Shown piece by piece: positions 32,862 to 41,911 of a DNA stretch of 64,000 bases. Origin of the DNA: Thermophilibacter mediterraneus (lineage in GTDB: Bacteria; Actinomycetota; Coriobacteriia; Coriobacteriales; Atopobiaceae); NCBI RefSeq assembly GCF_900119385.1, contig NZ_FPKO01000008.1:350382-414381 (forward strand). The letters run 5' to 3'. Position 1 is the stretch's first letter, and every line of letters begins with the position of its first letter. The notes under the pieces were generated by a model, which saw only the letters and a program-made list of their open reading frames with translations, ran no database searches and was not told where the DNA came from. The translations under genes were made by a program, and so were the position numbers.

Positions 32862-32943
32862 GTGCAAAGGGGACAGGCACTTTTGTACGCCGCCTTCGGC
32901 CGTGCAAAAGTGCCTGTCCCCTTTGCACGTGTCCCCTTTGCAC
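32862..32943. repeat. AAAGGGGACAGGCACTTTT palindrome, copy 1
   Basis: Arms of 23 bases (32862-32884 and 32906-32928) are exact complements, beginning GTGCAAAGGGGACAGGC, with a further GTCCCCTTTGCAC half-copy to 32943. The same palindrome occurs at 35906-35963. The two copies bracket the PepC gene pair. The motif resembles widespread REP-type elements. Confidence 0.9.
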
Positions 32944-33040: not shown

Positions 33041-34399
33041 ATGGACGATATGACGAGCGTCACCGCCGACGACCTTGCCCGCGCACGCGAGGAGTTCTTC
33101 TCCGAGCGCGCCAACGTCGTCGCCAAGAACGCCGTGAGCTCGGTGGGCGTCCGCGCGGCCGCGCGCGTGCCCGAGGGCGTCGCCGCGAACGCCATGACCT
33201 TCGACGTCGAGGTCAGCCAGGGCGAGCGCTGCGACCAGCAGCGCTCCGGCCGCTGCTGGATGTTCGCGAGCCTGAACACCATGCGCTACCGCGTCATCAA
33301 GAAGTACGGCCTCAAGAGCTTCGAGCTCTCCCAGGCCTACCCGCTCTTCTGGGACAAGCTCGAGAAGAGCAACTGGTTCTTCGAGAACATCCTCGACACG
33401 CTCGACGAGCCGCTCTCCGGCCGCCTCGTGGCCTACCTGCTCAGCGACCCCGTCGGCGACGGCGGGCAGTGGGACATGTTCAAGAGCCTCGTCAAGAAGT
33501 ACGGCGTCTGCCCCAAGGAGGCCATGCCCGAGACCGCCTGCTCGCGCAACACCTCCGAGCTGCACGCCTACCTCACGCGCTACCTGCGCGGCGCGGCCAA
33601 GCGCCTGCGCCAGAGCCACGAGGCGGGCGTGGGGCGCGACGAGCTCGAGGAGATGAAGAAGGAGATGATGGGCGACGTCTACCGCCTGCTCGTCACCTGC
33701 CTCGGCGAGCCGCCCGCGTCCTTCGAGGTCCGTCTGCGCGACAAGGACGACAACCTGGCGCTCTCCGGCACCTTCACCCCGCTCGAGTTCTTCTCCGAGG
33801 CCGTGGGCATGAACGTCGACGACTACGTGAGCCTCATCTCGGCCCCCACCGCCGACAAGCCCTTCGGCCACACCTACACCGTGAGCCGCCTCGGCAACGT
33901 CGTCGAGGACGGCGGCGTGCGCTACCTCAACCTTCCGATCGAGCGCCTCAAGGACGCCGCGATCGCGCAGCTGCGCGACGACCTGCCCGTGTGGTTCGGC
34001 TGCGACGTGGGCCAGAGCTTCATCCGCGAGGAGGGCATCATGGACACCGCGGCGCTTGACGTCGACGGCCTCTTCGGCTTCGAGGTCGAGGGCTGCATGG
34101 ACCGCGCCGAGCGGCTCGACTACGGCGAGTCGCTCATGACCCACGCCATGGTCCTCGAGGGCGTGAACCTCGACGCCGACGGCCGCCCGACGCTCTGGAA
34201 GGTCGAGAACAGCTGGGGCAAGGACCACGGCCGCAACGGCTTCGACACCCTCTCCGACCCGTGGTTCGACGAGTACGTCTACCAGGTCGTCGTTGACAAG
34301 AAGTACCTGAGCGACGACGAGCGGGCCACCTACGAGGGCGAGGATCCCACGGTGCTCGCGCCCTGGGACCCCATGGGCTCGCTCGCCCGCGTGCGCTAG
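33041..34399 (+). CDS. pepC: Aminopeptidase C (bleomycin hydrolase family C1B), first copy
   Basis: A 452-residue papain-fold cysteine aminopeptidase that trims peptides in the cytoplasm. The catalytic Cys72 is in SGRCWMF, the His in THAMVLEGV and the Asn in VENSWG; the oxyanion Gln lies just before the Cys. The length fits the homohexameric PepC/Blh family. The ATG at 33041 follows GGGAGG, with another in-frame Met at residue 4. It is followed after 9 bases by a paralogue, so they are co-transcribed. Confidence 0.93.
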   Translation: MDDMTSVTADDLARAREEFFSERANVVAKNAVSSVGVRAAARVPEGVAANAMTFDVEVSQGERCDQQRSGRCWMFASLNTMRYRVIKKYGLKSFELSQAYPLFWDKLEKSNWFFENILDTLDEPLSGRLVAYLLSDPVGDGGQWDMFKSLVKKYGVCPKEAMPETACSRNTSELHAYLTRYLRGAAKRLRQSHEAGVGRDELEEMKKEMMGDVYRLLVTCLGEPPASFEVRLRDKDDNLALSGTFTPLEFFSEAVGMNVDDYVSLISAPTADKPFGHTYTVSRLGNVVEDGGVRYLNLPIERLKDAAIAQLRDDLPVWFGCDVGQSFIREEGIMDTAALDVDGLFGFEVEGCMDRAERLDYGESLMTHAMVLEGVNLDADGRPTLWKVENSWGKDHGRNGFDTLSDPWFDEYVYQVVVDKKYLSDDERATYEGEDPTVLAPWDPMGSLARVR

Positions 34400-34408
34400 G
34401 GAGGCGGC

Positions 34409-35854
34409 ATGAGAGACTACTCCGCGGGCGCCATCGCGCCGCAGTCCGTCGACGAGCTCACCGCGTCCTTCTCGGCTGATCGCGCCAACCGCGTGGCGAG
34501 AAACGCCGTGACCTCGATGAACGTCCACGCCGCCGCGCGCGACGTGGCGCGCATGCGCACCTACCACGACACCTTCGGGGTCTCGCGCAAGCGCACGGGC
34601 AAGGTCACCAACCAGCGCCACTCCGGGCGCTGCTGGATGTTCTCGGCCTTCAACGTGGCCCGCGCGGCCACGATGGAGCTGCTCGACGTCGACGACTTCG
34701 AGTTCTCGCAGGCCTTCGGCTTCTTCTACGACAAGCTCGAGAAGTTCAACGTCGGCCTCGAGTACGTCATCGAGACCGCCGGCCTGCCCATCGACTCGCG
34801 CGAGGTCGCCGACCTGCTCGAGCACTCGATGGGCGACGGCAACTACTACCCCGCCGCGATGAACATCATCAGGAAGTGGGGGCTCGTCCCCAAGGACGCC
34901 ATGCCCGAGAGCGCCTGCACCAAGGACGCGGACCAGATGAACGCCCAGCTCGAGCGCCTGTTCCGCAAGAGCGCGATGGAGCTGCGCCGCCTGGTGGCGG
35001 GCGGCGCCGACATGGACGCGGTGCGCGCGGCCAAGGACTCGATGGTGGCGCAGTGCCACCAGGTGCTCGCCGTGTGCCTGGGCGAGCCGCCGCTGACGAT
35101 CGACGTCGAGGTCGTCGTGGGCAAGGCGTGCAAGGTGGACCCGGCGCGCCTCGTCGTGCAGGAGGGCGCAGAGGCGGACGAGAAGGACGGCCCGCGCCGC
35201 CTGCTCGTCGACCGCGGCATCACGCCGCGGGAGTTCGCCGAGCGCTACGTGCCCTTTGACCCGAGCGACTACGTGCAGCTCGAGCACCTCCCCGGCGAGA
35301 GCCGCCCGTTCGGCACCGTGTACCACCGGCGCTTCTCGGACACCATGGCCGGCGGCGTGCCGGTGCGCTTCCTCAACGTGCCGTTCGAGGTGCTCGAGGA
35401 CGCGGCGGTGGCGTCGCTGCGCGCGGGCGTGCCGTGCGAGATGGCCTGCGACGTGGGCCAGCAGTTCCCGCGGCGCATCGAGGACTTCCCCGGCGTGCTC
35501 GCGTGCGACACGATGGACTACGAGGGCCTCTTCGGCGTGGACCTCTCCATGAGCCGCGAGGACATGCTCGACGCCCGCGAGACGCGCAACACCCACGCGA
35601 TGACCTTCCAGGGCGTGCAGCTCGGCGACGACGGGTGCCCCGTGGCCTGGCGCATCGAGAACAGCTGGGGCGAGGACAGCTGCAAGGACGGCTACCTCGT
35701 GGCGAGCGCTGACTGGTACCGCACCTACGGCGGCGAGGTCGTGGTGAGGCGCGAGTTCGTGCCGGCCGAGTACCTCGAGCTGTGGGACAGCGCCCCCGTC
35801 GTGGAGGTCGAGCCCTGGACCAACGTCGGCTGCGCCCTGGCCCCGCGCGTGTGA
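34409..35854 (+). CDS. pepC: Aminopeptidase C (bleomycin hydrolase family C1B), second copy
   Basis: A 481-residue paralogue of the preceding gene with all catalytic residues: Cys75 in HSGRCWMF, His in THAMTFQGV and Asn in IENSWGED. It differs by an insertion of about 30 residues around 230-265 (KACKVDPARLVVQEGAEADE region) and by a longer C-terminus. Since the C-terminus enters the active site in this family and fixes exopeptidase behaviour, the two proteins may differ in cleavage preference. The ATG at 34409 follows GGGAGG. A REP-like palindrome follows 50 bases after the stop. Confidence 0.92.
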   Translation: MRDYSAGAIAPQSVDELTASFSADRANRVARNAVTSMNVHAAARDVARMRTYHDTFGVSRKRTGKVTNQRHSGRCWMFSAFNVARAATMELLDVDDFEFSQAFGFFYDKLEKFNVGLEYVIETAGLPIDSREVADLLEHSMGDGNYYPAAMNIIRKWGLVPKDAMPESACTKDADQMNAQLERLFRKSAMELRRLVAGGADMDAVRAAKDSMVAQCHQVLAVCLGEPPLTIDVEVVVGKACKVDPARLVVQEGAEADEKDGPRRLLVDRGITPREFAERYVPFDPSDYVQLEHLPGESRPFGTVYHRRFSDTMAGGVPVRFLNVPFEVLEDAAVASLRAGVPCEMACDVGQQFPRRIEDFPGVLACDTMDYEGLFGVDLSMSREDMLDARETRNTHAMTFQGVQLGDDGCPVAWRIENSWGEDSCKDGYLVASADWYRTYGGEVVVRREFVPAEYLELWDSAPVVEVEPWTNVGCALAPRV

Positions 35855-35905: not shown

Positions 35906-35963
35906 GTGCAAAGGGGACAGGCACTTTTGCACGGTCGTGCAAAAGTGCCTGTCCCCTTTGCAC
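35906..35963. repeat. AAAGGGGACAGGCACTTTT palindrome, copy 2
   Basis: 23-base arms (35906-35928 and 35941-35963) identical in sequence to those at 32862-32928, plus a CCCTTTGCAC remnant running to the yigZ stop. It lies between convergent pepC and yigZ and may serve as a shared transcript end, although it lacks a U-tract. Confidence 0.9.
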
Positions 35964-37265: not shown

Positions 37266-37628
37266 GCGAGGTGGGCCAGGCGACCGCGGGGCTCCCCGGA
37301 GACGGGGCGCCATGAGGAAAGTCCGGGCTCCACAGGGCAGGAAGCCGGCTAACGGCCGGGCGGGGTAACCCGACGGAAAGCGCCGCAGAAAAGAAGACTC
37401 CCGCTGGCGGGCACGTCCCGTTGAGGGAAAAGCTGAAACGGTGGTGTAAGAGACCACCAGCGTCGTGGCAACACGGCGGCTTGGCAAGCCCCTTCCGGAG
37501 CAAACGCAAATAGGAGCGCCATGGTGTGGCCCGCACCGCGCTCGGGTTGCGCGCTCGAGGCGACCGGAGACGGTCGTCCTAGATAAATGGCCGCCCACGA
37601 CAGAACCCGGCTTATCGGCCCACCTCGC
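37266..37628 (+). ncRNA. rnpB: RNase P RNA, bacterial class A
   Basis: About 363 bases with the conserved features: the terminal helix GCGAGGTGGGCC and GGCCCACCTCGC, GAGGAAAGTCCGGGCTCC early on, the GGGTAACCCGACGG region, AAGAGACCACCAGC, GCAAACGCAAATAGGAG, and GACAGAACCCGGCTTATCGG near the 3' end. It is the catalytic RNA that matures tRNA 5' ends. It lies between the EIIA gene (divergent) and the radical-SAM gene (same strand). Confidence 0.96.
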
Positions 37629-37763
37629 ACCTCCACCCTCCCCGAGCAGGCCCGTCGCGGCCCCTGTCACCGCAGCCGCCGGCGAGAAGAACCTCGGCTC
37701 GAACATGTGTCCGGTCCCTGTGCTACCCTGTTCACAAACAGGTGTTCGGGACTGGGAGGCACG

Positions 37764-39200
37764 ATGGACACGCTCGACAAGCTCGCGATCCTCGCCGAGG
37801 CGGCGCGCTACGACGCCGCGTGCACCTCGTCGGGGGCGTCGCGCGCCCCGCGCGCGGGCGCGCTCGGGACCGCGCAGCCGGCAGGCTGCTGCCACGCGTT
37901 CACGCCGGACGGGCGCTGCGTCACCCTGCTCAAGGTCCTCATGTCCAACGCCTGCAGCCACGACTGCGCCTACTGCGTGAGTCGCAGCTCGGCCTCGTGC
38001 GCGCGGGCCACCTTCTCCCCGCGCGAGCTCGCCGAGCTCACGGTCGACTTCTACCGGCGCAACTACGTCGAGGGGCTCTTCCTCTCGTCCGGCGTGCTCG
38101 GGACCCCAGACGCCACCACCGAGCGCATGCTGGCGTGCCTGCGCATCCTGCGCAACGACCTGCGCTTCAACGGCTACGTGCACGCCAAGGTCATCCCCGG
38201 GACCTCGCCGGAGCTCGTCGGGGAGCTCGGGGTGCTGGCGGACCGCCTCTCCGTGAACATCGAGCTCCCCAGCGCCGCCTCGCTCGAGTCACTCTGCCCC
38301 CAGAAGCGCCGCGACGAGGTCCTGCGACCCATGGCCCAGATCCGCGCGCGACGCGCCGACGAGGAGCGGCGCCTTCTCGAGGAGCGGGGGCGCGGCGCGG
38401 GAGGGCGGCTCCCGGGTCGCGCCCCCGGGGATCAGCCCGGCCTCCCCGGCCACGCCGGGAGGGGCGGGGCGCGCCGAGCACGGGGCCCGATGCCGCTGCT
38501 CGCGGCGGGCTCGGGCTCGGCGCTCGGCCTCACCCTGCGGAGGCGCCCCGTGGGCCCGCGCGGGCGCTCGTTCGCCCCGGCGGGGCAGTCCACGCAGCTC
38601 ATCGTCGGCGCCACCCCCGAGGACGACAACCGGGTCCTCACGCTCTCGAAGGCGCTCTATGACCGCTTCGACCTGAGGCGCGTGTTCTTCTCGGCCTACA
38701 TGCCCATGCTCGACGACGCGCGGCTCCCGGACCGCGGCTCGCCCGTTCCGCTCCGTCGCGAGCACCGGCTCTACCAGGCGGACTGGCTCATGCGCTACTA
38801 CGGCTTCGAACCCTCCGAGCTCGTCACGCCCGAGGAGCCCTGGCTCGACCTCGATCTCGACCCCAAGCTCGCGTGGGCCCTGCGCAACCTGGACCGCTTC
38901 CCCGTCGAGGTCATGGACGCGCCGCTCGAGCTGCTGCTGCGCGTGCCGGGGGTGGGCCCGGTCGGCGCGCGGCGCATCGTGGCCGCCCGGGCGCGCGGCC
39001 CCGTGACCTTTGACGACCTGCGCGCCCTGCGCGTCACGCTCGGGAGGGCGCGCCACTTCCTCACGTGCGGGGGGCGACGAGACGACCAGAGCCCGCTCGA
39101 CGCGGAGCTCATCCGGGAGAGGGTGACGAGCGATGCCAGGTCAGGTGCCTACAACTGCAGGAGACGCGAGCTCGAGGGAGGTCAGCTCCGCCTCTTCTGA
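37764..39200 (+). CDS. Putative DNA modification/repair radical SAM protein
   Basis: A 478-residue radical-SAM protein. Its 4Fe-4S ligands are Cys64, Cys68 and Cys71 in ACSHDCAYC (a CX3CX2C arrangement). LFLSSGVLGTPDATTERM and the FAPAGQSTQLIVGATPEDD segment follow, and LLLRVPGVGPVGARRI forms a C-terminal helix-hairpin-helix. This matches the uracil-DNA-glycosylase-linked radical-SAM family (TIGR03916-like). Residues about 205-267 are a Gly/Arg/Pro-rich insertion not expected in the family. The ATG at 37764 follows GGGAGG. The next gene is its usual DUF4130 partner. The reaction is unknown. Confidence 0.9.
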   Translation: MDTLDKLAILAEAARYDAACTSSGASRAPRAGALGTAQPAGCCHAFTPDGRCVTLLKVLMSNACSHDCAYCVSRSSASCARATFSPRELAELTVDFYRRNYVEGLFLSSGVLGTPDATTERMLACLRILRNDLRFNGYVHAKVIPGTSPELVGELGVLADRLSVNIELPSAASLESLCPQKRRDEVLRPMAQIRARRADEERRLLEERGRGAGGRLPGRAPGDQPGLPGHAGRGGARRARGPMPLLAAGSGSALGLTLRRRPVGPRGRSFAPAGQSTQLIVGATPEDDNRVLTLSKALYDRFDLRRVFFSAYMPMLDDARLPDRGSPVPLRREHRLYQADWLMRYYGFEPSELVTPEEPWLDLDLDPKLAWALRNLDRFPVEVMDAPLELLLRVPGVGPVGARRIVAARARGPVTFDDLRALRVTLGRARHFLTCGGRRDDQSPLDAELIRERVTSDARSGAYNCRRRELEGGQLRLF

Positions 39201-39210
39201 GGTGGGGCGC

Positions 39211-40131
39211 ATGGTCTCGGCGCTCGCCGAGACGACGAGGCGCTACGGCGTCCTGCTCGCCTGCGAGCCCACGGCCGAGGGAATCGTCGCCTCGGTGGGC
39301 GCGGGCTACCTCGCGCACGTGCGGGAGGCCCAGCTCGAGCTCTGTCGCGCCGACGGGTGCCAGCCCCGGCTGGGGCAGGTCGCGCTCGGCCCGCTCGACG
39401 ACTCCAGCGACGAGGTCGTCGCGCTCTCGCGACGCGTGCTCGTGGGGTTTCGCCGCAGGGCGGGGCGCGAGTGCGCGCGGCGGGCGGTGCTCGCCTGCGC
39501 CTCGGACGAGGGGTGCGCGCCGGAGGCGGTCCACCGCTACCTCAGGCTGGGCTTCTCGCGCCCCTGGGAGCTTCACGCCCGCGCCACGGACAAGCGCGTG
39601 CTCGCCGTCGACGACCTCGCGCGCCGCGTGCTGGGAGAGGTGGAGCGCACCCGCCAGTTCGTGCGCTTCTCGCACCTCGCCGACGGCTCGTGGGTCGCGG
39701 CGTTCGAGCCGGCCGCCAGCACCGTGCCCCTCGTCGCCGACCACTTCGCGCGGCGCATGGGCACCGAGCGCTTCTGCCTCGTGGACCCGCGGCACCACAT
39801 GGCCGCCTTCCACGAGGCGCGCAGCCCGCGCTGCGCGGTCGTGCGCCTCGACGAGGCGCTCTGCCAGCGCCTGCTCGAGCTCGAGACCGAGGGCCTCGCA
39901 GAGGACGAGCGCTACGTCCGCGCCCTGTGGAGGCGCTTCTTCGACCACGTCTCGCTGCCCGGGCGCGGTCCCGGGGAGCGCGGCTACGACCTGCAGTCCC
40001 GGCACGTCCCCGCTCGGCTGCGCGGCCGCATGGCCGAGTTCGACCCCCGCTCCGCCGACCCCGGCGGAGCGGCCCCCGAGCGCTACGCGGGCGGCGCCGG
40101 GCGCCTCGCGGGGACGGGGGGCGGGGCCTAG
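39211..40131 (+). CDS. DUF4130 family probable DNA metabolism protein
   Basis: A 306-residue protein of the family paired with the radical-SAM gene upstream (TIGR03915-like). Family features are the YGVLLACEPTAEGIVASVGAGY opening, the KRVLAVDDLARRVLGEVERTRQFVRFSHLADG core, ADHFARRMGTERFCLVDPRHHMAAF, and the LWRRFFDHVSLPGR segment. Many relatives carry a C-terminal uracil-DNA-glycosylase domain; this one does not. I used the ATG at 39211 with a GAGGTGGGG site, 10 bases after the radical-SAM stop. An ATG at 39133 overlapping that gene is an alternative. Confidence 0.88.
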   Translation: MVSALAETTRRYGVLLACEPTAEGIVASVGAGYLAHVREAQLELCRADGCQPRLGQVALGPLDDSSDEVVALSRRVLVGFRRRAGRECARRAVLACASDEGCAPEAVHRYLRLGFSRPWELHARATDKRVLAVDDLARRVLGEVERTRQFVRFSHLADGSWVAAFEPAASTVPLVADHFARRMGTERFCLVDPRHHMAAFHEARSPRCAVVRLDEALCQRLLELETEGLAEDERYVRALWRRFFDHVSLPGRGPGERGYDLQSRHVPARLRGRMAEFDPRSADPGGAAPERYAGGAGRLAGTGGGA

Positions 40132-40200: not shown

Positions 40201-40285
40201 TCGAGCGTGCCAGAATGCACGGTTTGGCCCCCTCTCTCCCCCCGTTCTGTGCAATATGGCAGACTGTGCGACGTGGCATGCTCGA
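40201..40285. repeat. Dispersed ~80-bp palindromic element, copy A
   Basis: The ends TCGAGCGTGCC and GGCATGCTCGA are near-perfect complements, with inner TGCAC and GTGCA arms around a pyrimidine-rich centre. Related copies lie at 41549-41626 and 41755-41838. This copy is just downstream of the AbiEi/DUF559-like gene. Confidence 0.85.
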
Positions 40286-40333
40286 CAACCAAGGAGGCGG
40301 GCGACGGGGCGTGGCGTCGCGACAACCGGAGGC

Positions 40334-41443
40334 TCACGCGGCGACGACGCGATAGCGGACGTGCATCCCCTCGGGCGTCACGAAGTCATCCTCCCCCAGG
40401 CCCGGCCGCCACCCCTCGACATGCGCTCGGAAGACGGGTATGCCGTGGACCTTCTCCGGCGCGGGCCCGTAGGGAATCCGATAGAGCTCGATGATCTTCC
40501 AGAAGCTCTCGTCATTTCGGACCTCGTCGAGCGAGAAGCGCGCGACCCGCGCGTCGTAGGCGGTTACCCGCGCCTCGCGCCGACGCTCGCCGCGCAGAAC
40601 GTCATCAAGCGTCATGGCGTCCGAGAACAGCTCGCCGGTGTACTTGATAAGGCCGTCGAGCTCACCAATCGAGGGCCTTCCGTCCTTGCCGAGCCACGAG
40701 AAGTCAACGCGAAACCTGCGGCGCTCGTCGAGCGGGTCGACGAGCTCGACCTGGAGCGCCGGAAGCGCGACGCCCCGCTCGATCATGATTGCCCGCGCGA
40801 CGGACTCCCCTCCGTTCTCGGGACGCGGGTCCGCCCAGCAGCAGGTAGCGAGCACGCGGGCGATGCCTCGACGCCCTCGAAAGTCGCGCCGCATGAGGCT
40901 CATGAGCGTCGTGTTGCGCATGCCCGACAGGCGCAGCACCGAGTCGGCGATGGCGAGCGCGTCCGGAAAGTCCATGACGGACATGCAGTCGAACGCGGCC
41001 CTCAGCGCCGACGTGACGCGCAGGCCAGCCACGACCTGCGGCTCCTCCCCTTCGATCTGATGGCGGACAATCCGCCCGGAGAGGCGGCGGCCATCGCGCG
41101 GCCCGCAGATGACGTGCACCCTGCGCAGCTCTGACCACGAGACCGACAGGCCGTGGACCATCGCGGCCGAGGGACCGCAGAACACCCAGTCGGGGTGGAG
41201 GGCGGCGAGCCCGCGCATGAGGTGCAGGCACCGTGCCGGCTGCTTGAGGAGGCGCCAGTGCGCCCAGCGAACGTAGAGGCCGGGCATCGGGGAGATGATT
41301 CGCCGCTCGGGATTGTCTCGCACGTGACCCAGCCGCCGCTCGAGAGCGGCGCGGTCGGCGCGGCTCGTCGGGCACAGGCACGATCCGGCCGCCTCGGCAC
41401 GGGCAAGCTCCCGGGCTATCCTCCGCTCGACTTCCTTGCTCAT
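40334..41443 (-). CDS. AbiEi antitoxin-like protein with DUF559-like nuclease fold
   Basis: A 369-residue protein of a type common in actinobacteria. An N-terminal region (about 80-150) resembles the AbiEi-associated domain, with GPSAAMVHGLSVSW and VRHQIEGEEPQVVAGLRVTSALRAAFD. A C-terminal part is like the Vsr/DUF559 endonuclease fold, with residues VDFSWLGKDGRPSIGELDGLIKYTGE arranged as a D-x-E-x-DG-x-K-type core. No AbiEii-type nucleotidyltransferase toxin is next to it. It may be an orphan defence or DNA-processing protein. It is flanked on both sides by copies of one palindromic element. The ATG at 41443 follows GGGGGAGG. Confidence 0.65.
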   Translation of the reverse strand: MSKEVERRIARELARAEAAGSCLCPTSRADRAALERRLGHVRDNPERRIISPMPGLYVRWAHWRLLKQPARCLHLMRGLAALHPDWVFCGPSAAMVHGLSVSWSELRRVHVICGPRDGRRLSGRIVRHQIEGEEPQVVAGLRVTSALRAAFDCMSVMDFPDALAIADSVLRLSGMRNTTLMSLMRRDFRGRRGIARVLATCCWADPRPENGGESVARAIMIERGVALPALQVELVDPLDERRRFRVDFSWLGKDGRPSIGELDGLIKYTGELFSDAMTLDDVLRGERRREARVTAYDARVARFSLDEVRNDESFWKIIELYRIPYGPAPEKVHGIPVFRAHVEGWRPGLGEDDFVTPEGMHVRYRVVAA

Positions 41444-41754: not shown

Positions 41755-41838
41755 TCGAGCATGCCTAGAGACACAGTTCCGCCCCCTCCGGGACCCCGTT
41801 CTGTGCAATATGGCAGTCTGGACGATATGGCATGCTCG
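41755..41838. repeat. Dispersed palindromic element, copy C
   Basis: It opens TCGAGCATGCC and closes GATATGGCATGCTCG. Its central stretch CCCCGTTCTGTGCAATATGG is shared exactly with copy A, so A and C are closer to each other than to B. Confidence 0.85.
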
Positions 41839-41911
41839 GCCACCCGGCAGCTCGGCCACCCGACCACCCGGCCACCCGGCAGCCCGGCCACCCGGCCACC
41901 CGGCCGCTCGC
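41837..41911. repeat. GGCCACCCG minisatellite
   Basis: About eight imperfect copies of GGCCACCCG and CGGCAGCCC-type units in 75 bases, directly following palindrome copy C. Probably prone to length change by slippage. Confidence 0.85.

Follow-up and report, generated by a model that had tools for sequence, protein, structure and literature searches.

The 64,000-nucleotide stretch of Thermophilibacter mediterraneus DNA analysed here (hereafter the window; contig NZ_FPKO01000008.1, positions 350,382 to 414,381, from a genome of 2.37 Mb in 9 contigs) carries adjacent genes for a radical S-adenosylmethionine (radical-SAM) protein with a helix-hairpin-helix (HhH) domain and for a DUF4130 protein. 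We consider it probable that this pair encodes an SOS-induced, sliding-clamp-tethered radical-SAM enzyme acting on DNA lesions, with DUF4130 as its dedicated partner. Beyond the first-pass annotation of this DNA, the analysis adds a clamp-type motif, SOS boxes, a Cys-His coupling to DUF4130 and a predicted DHH-like fold of the partner.

The radical-SAM protein matched NCBIfam TIGR03916 at 547.9 bits (cut-off 343.5), and its partner matched TIGR03915 at 128.3 bits (cut-off 112.25) and Pfam DUF4130 at 111.2 bits (cut-off 27). Both family assignments are far beyond chance, and the gene order is that of the relatives. We take TIGR03916, the radical-SAM protein linked to uracil-DNA glycosylase (UDG), to be COG4277. 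Matches of the radical-SAM protein to Pfam Radical_SAM (28.3 bits) and HHH_3 (17 bits) stayed below the Pfam cut-offs; in a profile search of PDB sequences, the HhH region matched a ComEA-related protein (E 0.00058) and, weakly, RuvA (E at least 0.27). The first-pass annotation was thus borne out in describing a radical-SAM/DUF4130 pair with a CX3CX2C motif (C64/C68/C71) and a C-terminal HhH, and in describing a module of DNA-repair flavour without a known reaction, as the family entry reads putative DNA modification/repair.

Distribution of the pair and the missing UDG domain

The two genes were found largely in the same genomes. In the subject's own class, TIGR03915 was matched in 83/246 genomes (80/246 over the cut-off) and TIGR03916 in 86/246, with 81 genomes having both, so that 81/83 DUF4130 genomes have a radical-SAM match. 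Of the five genomes with only the radical-SAM gene, two have divergent copies and three match very weakly, and the two with only DUF4130 (G237, G038) comprise a partial match below the cut-off and a contig-edge match in a 62% complete genome. A wider draw from the phylum gave radical-SAM matches in 35/296 genomes, including 17/17 of those with DUF4130. The subject genome has one DUF4130 match, a divergent copy that shares 17-31% identity with the other 63 rows of the DUF4130 alignment. Both families were also matched in Caulobacter vibrioides, which served as a control.

At the level of loci, we used 80 named loci, 30 more from the own class and the window. The named loci are the best 80 of at least 587 confirmed relatives found by scanning genomes with a radical-SAM alignment, and are mostly Clostridia with some Coriobacteriia. 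A DUF4130 frame lay near the radical-SAM gene in 107/111 loci. In two of the other four (L101, L108) the genome carries DUF4130 elsewhere, and the remaining two loci (L083, L103) break off no more than 150 nt from the gene.

The first-pass annotation had noted that the partner lacks a UDG domain, and indeed NCBIfam and Pfam scans of the partner gave no UDG match. Its further description as a stripped-down version did not stand, because the absence is no exception: in 107/107 loci, mainly of Firmicutes and Coriobacteriia, the DUF4130 frame runs at most 61 residues past the domain and leaves no room for a UDG. A UdgX fusion was annotated in 5/5 proteobacterial plasmid copies, two of which we rescored as TIGR03914 plus TIGR03915, while 5/5 annotated Bacteroidota and Firmicutes plasmid copies were unfused. 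UdgX is not needed for the core function, because among the copies examined the fusion occurs only in the proteobacterial ones. The subject's pair shares with the proteobacterial operon the radical-SAM and DUF4130 parts, an SOS box and a QLxLF-type tail, and differs in that UdgX is fused there, whereas in the subject it is neither fused nor found in the genome.

This bears on the possibility that the pair processes uracil- or AP-DNA by taking up the product of a UDG provided in trans, with UdgX joined to it in Proteobacteria. A stand-alone UdgX-like gene, which the first-pass annotation had proposed to look for, was sought in the subject genome and not found, the best TIGR03914 match reaching 121.3 bits against a cut-off of 189.95. 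The protein concerned is a family-4 UDG (TIGR00758, 195.4 bits; cut-off 125.3), and the only other UDG-superfamily match outside the pair, making two in all, is a DNA-deoxyinosine glycosylase (TIGR04274, 129.4 bits; cut-off 80). The family-4 enzyme could be the supplier, and together with the proteobacterial fusions it favours a uracil or abasic pathway. But it is not UdgX, its gene lies on a contig other than the pair's, beside what we take to be an alanine-racemase-like and a tsaE-like frame, and the 107 frames without UDG room also speak against this pathway, which we regard as unlikely. Two UdgX papers (PMC10776899, PMC10359453) make no mention of radical SAM, DUF4130, an operon or SOS, and the available part of a study of Caulobacter repair genes (PMC1839093) contains nothing on the radical-SAM/DUF4130 pair.

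LexA-type boxes and the clamp-type tail

GAAC-N4-GTTC is the Gram-positive LexA box, and GAAC-N7-GAAC the alpha-type box. Boxes were counted within 300 bp upstream of the radical-SAM gene and compared with control windows from the same loci (2975 for the named loci); the counts drew on 162 radical-SAM sequences, skipping L051 (short) and L151 (no anchor), with the Firmicutes plasmid copies L152-L154 in no group. In the named loci, an exact GAAC-N4-GTTC was present in 36/80 (0.2% of control windows), a box with at most one mismatch in 63/80 (8.8%) and two or more boxes in 41/80 (0.5%). Coriobacteriia loci L035-L064 had an exact box in 5/29, a box with at most one mismatch in 28/29 and at least two boxes in 22/29. 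Enrichment extended to the subject's own family, with 9/17 exact, 17/17 at up to one mismatch and 16/17 with at least two boxes, against 0.9%, 6.4% and 0/543 control windows. The five proteobacterial copies had no GAAC-N4-GTTC; GAAC-N7-GAAC was found in 4/4 alphaproteobacterial copies (with one occurrence elsewhere in 35564 bp) and CTGT-N8-ACAG in the single betaproteobacterial copy.

The window itself has three one-mismatch boxes (Table 1). The second and third recur at -99 and -64 in the genus members L161 and L162, and L160 has a pair at -97/-62. For comparison, the subject's lexA promoter has three one-mismatch boxes and that of recA one exact box. Based on these sequence matches, the pair is probably repressed by LexA. 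SOS control of the module is not new and has already been predicted in print: the available text of PMC3828012 predicts LexA control for CAC3343-CAC3344 of Clostridium acetobutylicum, and that of PMC8565304 does so for COG1573-COG4277 in Bacteroidetes and cites reports on Verrucomicrobia and Alphaproteobacteria. Furthermore, an Acinetobacter copy was upregulated at 8% humidity, according to the part of PMC13130816 that was available.

The C-terminal residues of the radical-SAM protein are ...EGGQLRLF. For bacteria, the sliding-clamp motif is given as QL[S/D]LF or, more broadly, QxxLF, is often C-terminal, and forms the QLSLF end of PolC (PMC12309361, PMC4549789, as far as their text was available). 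QLRLF is of the QxxLF form expected of a client of the beta-clamp (DnaN) with the motif in an accessible tail, and the tail is predicted to be disordered (pLDDT, the predicted local distance difference test score, below 50). The protein thus has a C-terminal QLxLF pentapeptide in common with PolC and other clamp clients, but is not a polymerase. Among 160 family tails (last 110 aa, window included), 93 had Q[LM][SD]LF, 120 had QxxLF and 144 had a wider form, compared with 0.0%, 1.7% and 3.8% of shuffled tails; the two of 162 sequences left out were L103, at a contig end, and L051, whose tail has QMSLF. In these loci, none of 927 other open reading frames had the canonical Q[LM][SD]LF in its last 60 aa. 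In a 35-sequence alignment the motif Gln is the last invariant column, the tail being otherwise variable, and Q[LMP]xLF ends the window protein and all 16 own-family relatives fetched. The proteobacterial tails read QLTLF, QLSLF, QLSLL and QLSLI, Spirosoma (Bacteroidota) has QLSLF and the distant Gemmatirosa QLSLW; the Bacteroides and Parabacteroides ends RQLLLDFGE and RQLILPFID match none of the patterns used. A literature search found no paper joining radical SAM with a clamp-binding motif.

The clamp assignment follows from similarity to a consensus, and the tail might instead dock DUF4130 or another protein. Against this, the exact clamp consensus occurs in the 93 tails counted above, and a clamp-type motif is kept in 12 of the 17 tails whose copies lack or probably lack DUF4130 (L286 counted). 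We therefore give docking to a protein other than DnaN little weight. The persistence of the motif in DUF4130-less copies suggests that clamp tethering would be an older and wider trait than the partnership with DUF4130.

Residues coupled to DUF4130 and predicted folds

Besides CX3CX2C, the residues C20, C43 (with H44) and C52 are nearly universal, and all three cysteines were present in 140/141 loci with DUF4130 in reach. Counted on unthinned sequences, C43-H44 was intact in 141/141 of these loci and in the two whose DUF4130 lies elsewhere in the genome, giving 143/143. Sixteen loci were judged to lack DUF4130; one of them lacks the N-terminus, and C43-H44 was broken in 15/15 that were readable. 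C43 was lost in 14/15, and the last, L282 (genome G407), keeps C43 and loses H44. Behind its otherwise intact radical-SAM gene, L282 has a 13.2-bit DUF4130 match at 1375-2283, a probable DUF4130 remnant that likely reflects recent loss. A further locus, L286, is too short to judge for DUF4130; it has Tyr-Tyr at C43-H44, and its genome is outside the 17 with DUF4130. Three DUF4130-less loci of family f38 (L283, L285, L287) share a similar downstream frame that ends in ferredoxin-type cysteine repeats.

As a control, we considered the 128 columns that are at least 95% conserved in DUF4130-positive copies. Only five of these changed in all six nearest DUF4130-less relatives (five of the relatives belong to one clade): C43, F96, N100, Y101 and E103, with H44 changed in 5/6. 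L282 deviates at 2/128 columns, F96 and H44, both in the coupled set. This co-variation with DUF4130 presence suggests that C43-H44 and F96/N100/Y101/E103 form either a docking site for DUF4130 or an active site that is needed only with DUF4130.

The model of the radical-SAM protein (pLDDT 80.7) was nearest to lipoyl synthase (LipA), with Z 18.1 over 228 residues, followed by HydE; MqnE, HydG and biotin synthase were close. In lipoyl synthase, three N-terminal cysteines hold an auxiliary cluster. The alignment to LipA starts at model residues 1-2, and the radical-SAM protein likewise has three cysteines N-terminal to CX3CX2C, but their spacing is unlike that of LipA, and an HhH domain and the clamp-type tail are added.

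The DUF4130 model of the window was built from 64 sequences (pLDDT 90.8; pTM, the predicted template-modelling score, 0.87). Foldseek ranked PAP phosphatase first (E 3.4e-4, template-modelling score 0.42), followed by a protein with a DHH domain and by RecJ. The top 29 rows of the VIA table were either DHH proteins, among them PAP phosphatase, RecJ and DhhP, or chains from replisome entries, which we take to be Cdc45; DHH proteins and Cdc45 presumably belong to one superfamily. Z ranged from 5.9 to 8.9, mostly over ~200 aligned residues with a root-mean-square deviation (rmsd) of 5-7, and the top row had Z 8.9, 205 aligned residues and rmsd 5.3. These rows hint at a two-domain fold over model residues 2-227 like that of the DHH/DHHA1 proteins PAP phosphatase, RecJ, NrnA and Cdc45, although sequence comparison does not support it. 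The DHH motif is absent from the consensus of the 64 DUF4130 sequences, profile-profile comparison gave no support, and a search of PDB sequences up to E 1 found no relative. If the model is right, the fold hints at nucleic-acid binding without catalysis.

Two further readings concern the chemistry. Radical-SAM enzymes that modify nucleic acids exist, and the family name would allow the pair to install a radical-made base modification rather than repair DNA. The nearest fold is that of a sulphur-inserting enzyme, and a DUF4130-less relative matched the lipoyl synthase LipS2 weakly (20.6 bits), but SOS boxes and a clamp motif fit a damage response better. In addition, PADLOC returned 0 families at E up to 1, and the IMG/VR scan gave 12 pattern matches, none of them confirmed as a relative. 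We consider DNA modification very unlikely. Repair of thymine lesions in the manner of spore photoproduct lyase (SPL) appears just as improbable: the combination of radical SAM, DNA and SOS favours it, as does an earlier proposal in the available text of PMC3765255, which predicts that DUF4130 is an enzyme related to mutagenesis and places it with SplB-like radical SAM proteins and UDGs as possible modifiers of thymines, but LipA, HydE, BioB and HydG led the structural rows with SPL not among the 50 shown (which is not decisive), no SPL model was among the NCBIfam matches, and gut anaerobes, in which the module is common, presumably see little light.

On the PADLOC and IMG/VR results we also rejected an anti-phage defence gene and a phage gene. 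PHROGs gave two weak matches only (E 0.02 and 0.085), and of the ten matching records in phage collections, eight are unannotated fecal entries under the name "Bacteriophage sp." and two are 240-kb records of Acinetobacter phages; these may represent host DNA.

Proposed mechanism and genomic context

In the mechanism that we propose for an SOS-induced, clamp-tethered lesion enzyme, LexA would release the pair upon damage, and the radical-SAM subunit would generate a 5'-deoxyadenosyl radical at CX3CX2C, as expected from its superfamily. The HhH domain would grip DNA, the presumed substrate, and the replication sliding clamp would carry the subunit by its QLRLF tail. DUF4130 would most likely not be a phosphoesterase but a subunit that binds DNA or presents the substrate. 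C43-H44 and F96/N100/Y101/E103 would dock it or, together with C20 and C52, form a LipA-like N-terminal auxiliary Fe-S site. The likeliest chemistry would be a radical reaction that reverses or processes base damage in stalled or newly copied DNA. DUF4130 may serve one reaction mode of the radical-SAM enzyme, with UdgX as a proteobacterial add-on whose fusion would let the module also handle uracil or abasic DNA. A more specific version is tentative and less likely than not: a clamp-riding radical-SAM enzyme that SOS induction would bring onto DnaN where DNA is damaged or newly copied, and whose partner, an inactive DHH fold, presents DNA, with a partner-dependent LipA-like Cys site driving a new radical DNA repair and UdgX a later proteobacterial addition that traps uracil sites.

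Several observations weigh against this proposal. The boxes of the window are all one-mismatch; GAAC-N4-GTTC at up to one mismatch was found in 0/7 other DUF4130-positive Actinomycetota, the DUF4130-less set had an exact GAAC-N4-GTTC in only 3/16, and 3/3 Bacteroidota copies lacked an exact box of any pattern tried. Shuffled upstream stretches of the named loci gave 4.9% exact and 25% one-mismatch boxes, more than the control windows did, in a control that used older anchors which missed boxes near the start codon. In the tails, 16/160 lack even the wide motif form, and DnaN binding is predicted from a short motif. C52 is Thr in one DUF4130-positive copy, contrary to a strict three-Cys cluster; L083 and L103, both at contig ends, keep C43-H44 with no DUF4130 found in their draft genomes; and two counted loci, L041 and L093, apparently represent a single contig. 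The coupling amounts to ~4 independent events on an 80-row tree made by a quick method, with one split deep in the tree and three losses within its main clade (five changes with L101 scored DUF4130-negative, ~4 on a hand recount with L101 corrected). The independent-pairs test gave p 0.5, which is not significant, there being too few events for a sign test to reach significance. As to the DUF4130 fold, Z 8.9 is near the VIA tool's null of 7-8, and hhalign comparison of DUF4130 with NrnA, family-II pyrophosphatase and RecJ gave probabilities of 0.1-0.2%, the same as the unrelated radical-SAM control. The reaction of the pair and its binding to DnaN are both predictions. The small number of events is already allowed for in our estimate, and L083/L103 and the shuffle control leave it unmoved.

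Table 1. Features of the radical-SAM/DUF4130 locus, in window coordinates
Feature	Position	Strand	Basis
Radical-SAM/HhH protein, TIGR03916, 478 aa	37764..39200	+	profile matches, structure model
DUF4130 protein, TIGR03915, no UDG domain	39133..40131	+	profile matches; likelier start 39211
GAAC-N4-GTTC one-mismatch matches, three (37689-37700, 37701-37712, 37736-37747)	37689..37747	+	pattern scan
Extra conserved cysteines C20 (37821-37823), C43-H44 (37890-37895), C52 (37917-37919)	37821..37919	+	
CX3CX2C radical-SAM cluster motif, C64/C68/C71	37953..37976	+	sequence
F96-N100-Y101-E103 patch (FYRRNYxE), changes with DUF4130 loss like C43-H44	38049..38072	+	
Low-complexity insertion, long, low pLDDT at centre; variable form in own family	38340..38570	+	
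HhH motif RVPGVGPVGARRI	38934..38999	+	Pfam match below cut-off and profile search of PDB sequences
QLRLF, pentapeptide of sliding-clamp-binding type at the extreme C-terminus	39183..39197	+	sequence and published consensus

The radical-SAM open reading frame spans 37587-39200, and the start ATG is that given in Table 1. For DUF4130, the frame as listed would overlap the radical-SAM gene by 68 nt, and the in-frame ATG at 39211, 10 nt past the radical-SAM stop, is the likelier true start. The long low-complexity insertion distinguishes the radical-SAM protein of the subject's own family from other members of TIGR03916. A double frameshift at this position was rejected, as own-family relatives (14 of the 16 fetched were readable) carry insertions of varying form at this point, and their flanks are intact. 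In genomes G084 and G244 (L217-L220) the radical-SAM gene falls on two contigs, with the break at the insertion, which from these splits is probably hard to assemble.

Elsewhere in the window, a perfect 28-nt inverted repeat at 35906-35963 contains GGGGACAGGCAC, and a second inverted pair of this 12-mer lies ~3 kb away at 32869-32921. The window has 6 matches with no more than one mismatch, 4 of them exact, where 0.66 would be expected, and the GGGGACAGGCAC elements look like an intergenic palindromic repeat family. Tandem C1-like peptidase genes are found at 33041-34399 and 34409-35854 (Pfam Peptidase_C1_2, 548 and 387 bits), the second diverged. Downstream of the pair, a 105-nt direct repeat (40201-40305 and 41755-41859, 73% identical) flanks frame 40334-41443, which had no Pfam match, and tandem 8-bp units like CGGCCACC occupy 41837-41908, downstream of a minus-strand DivIVA gene.

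The radical-SAM/DUF4130 pair is widespread, as its frequency among the genomes of its class indicates, yet its family entry is still that of a putative DNA repair module without a reaction. The clamp tail indicates where the pair would work, the SOS boxes when, and C43-H44 with F96/N100/Y101/E103 which residues would matter. Its function thereby becomes testable before the identity of the lesion is known. If the proposal is true, radical chemistry would be among the repair activities carried on the sliding clamp.

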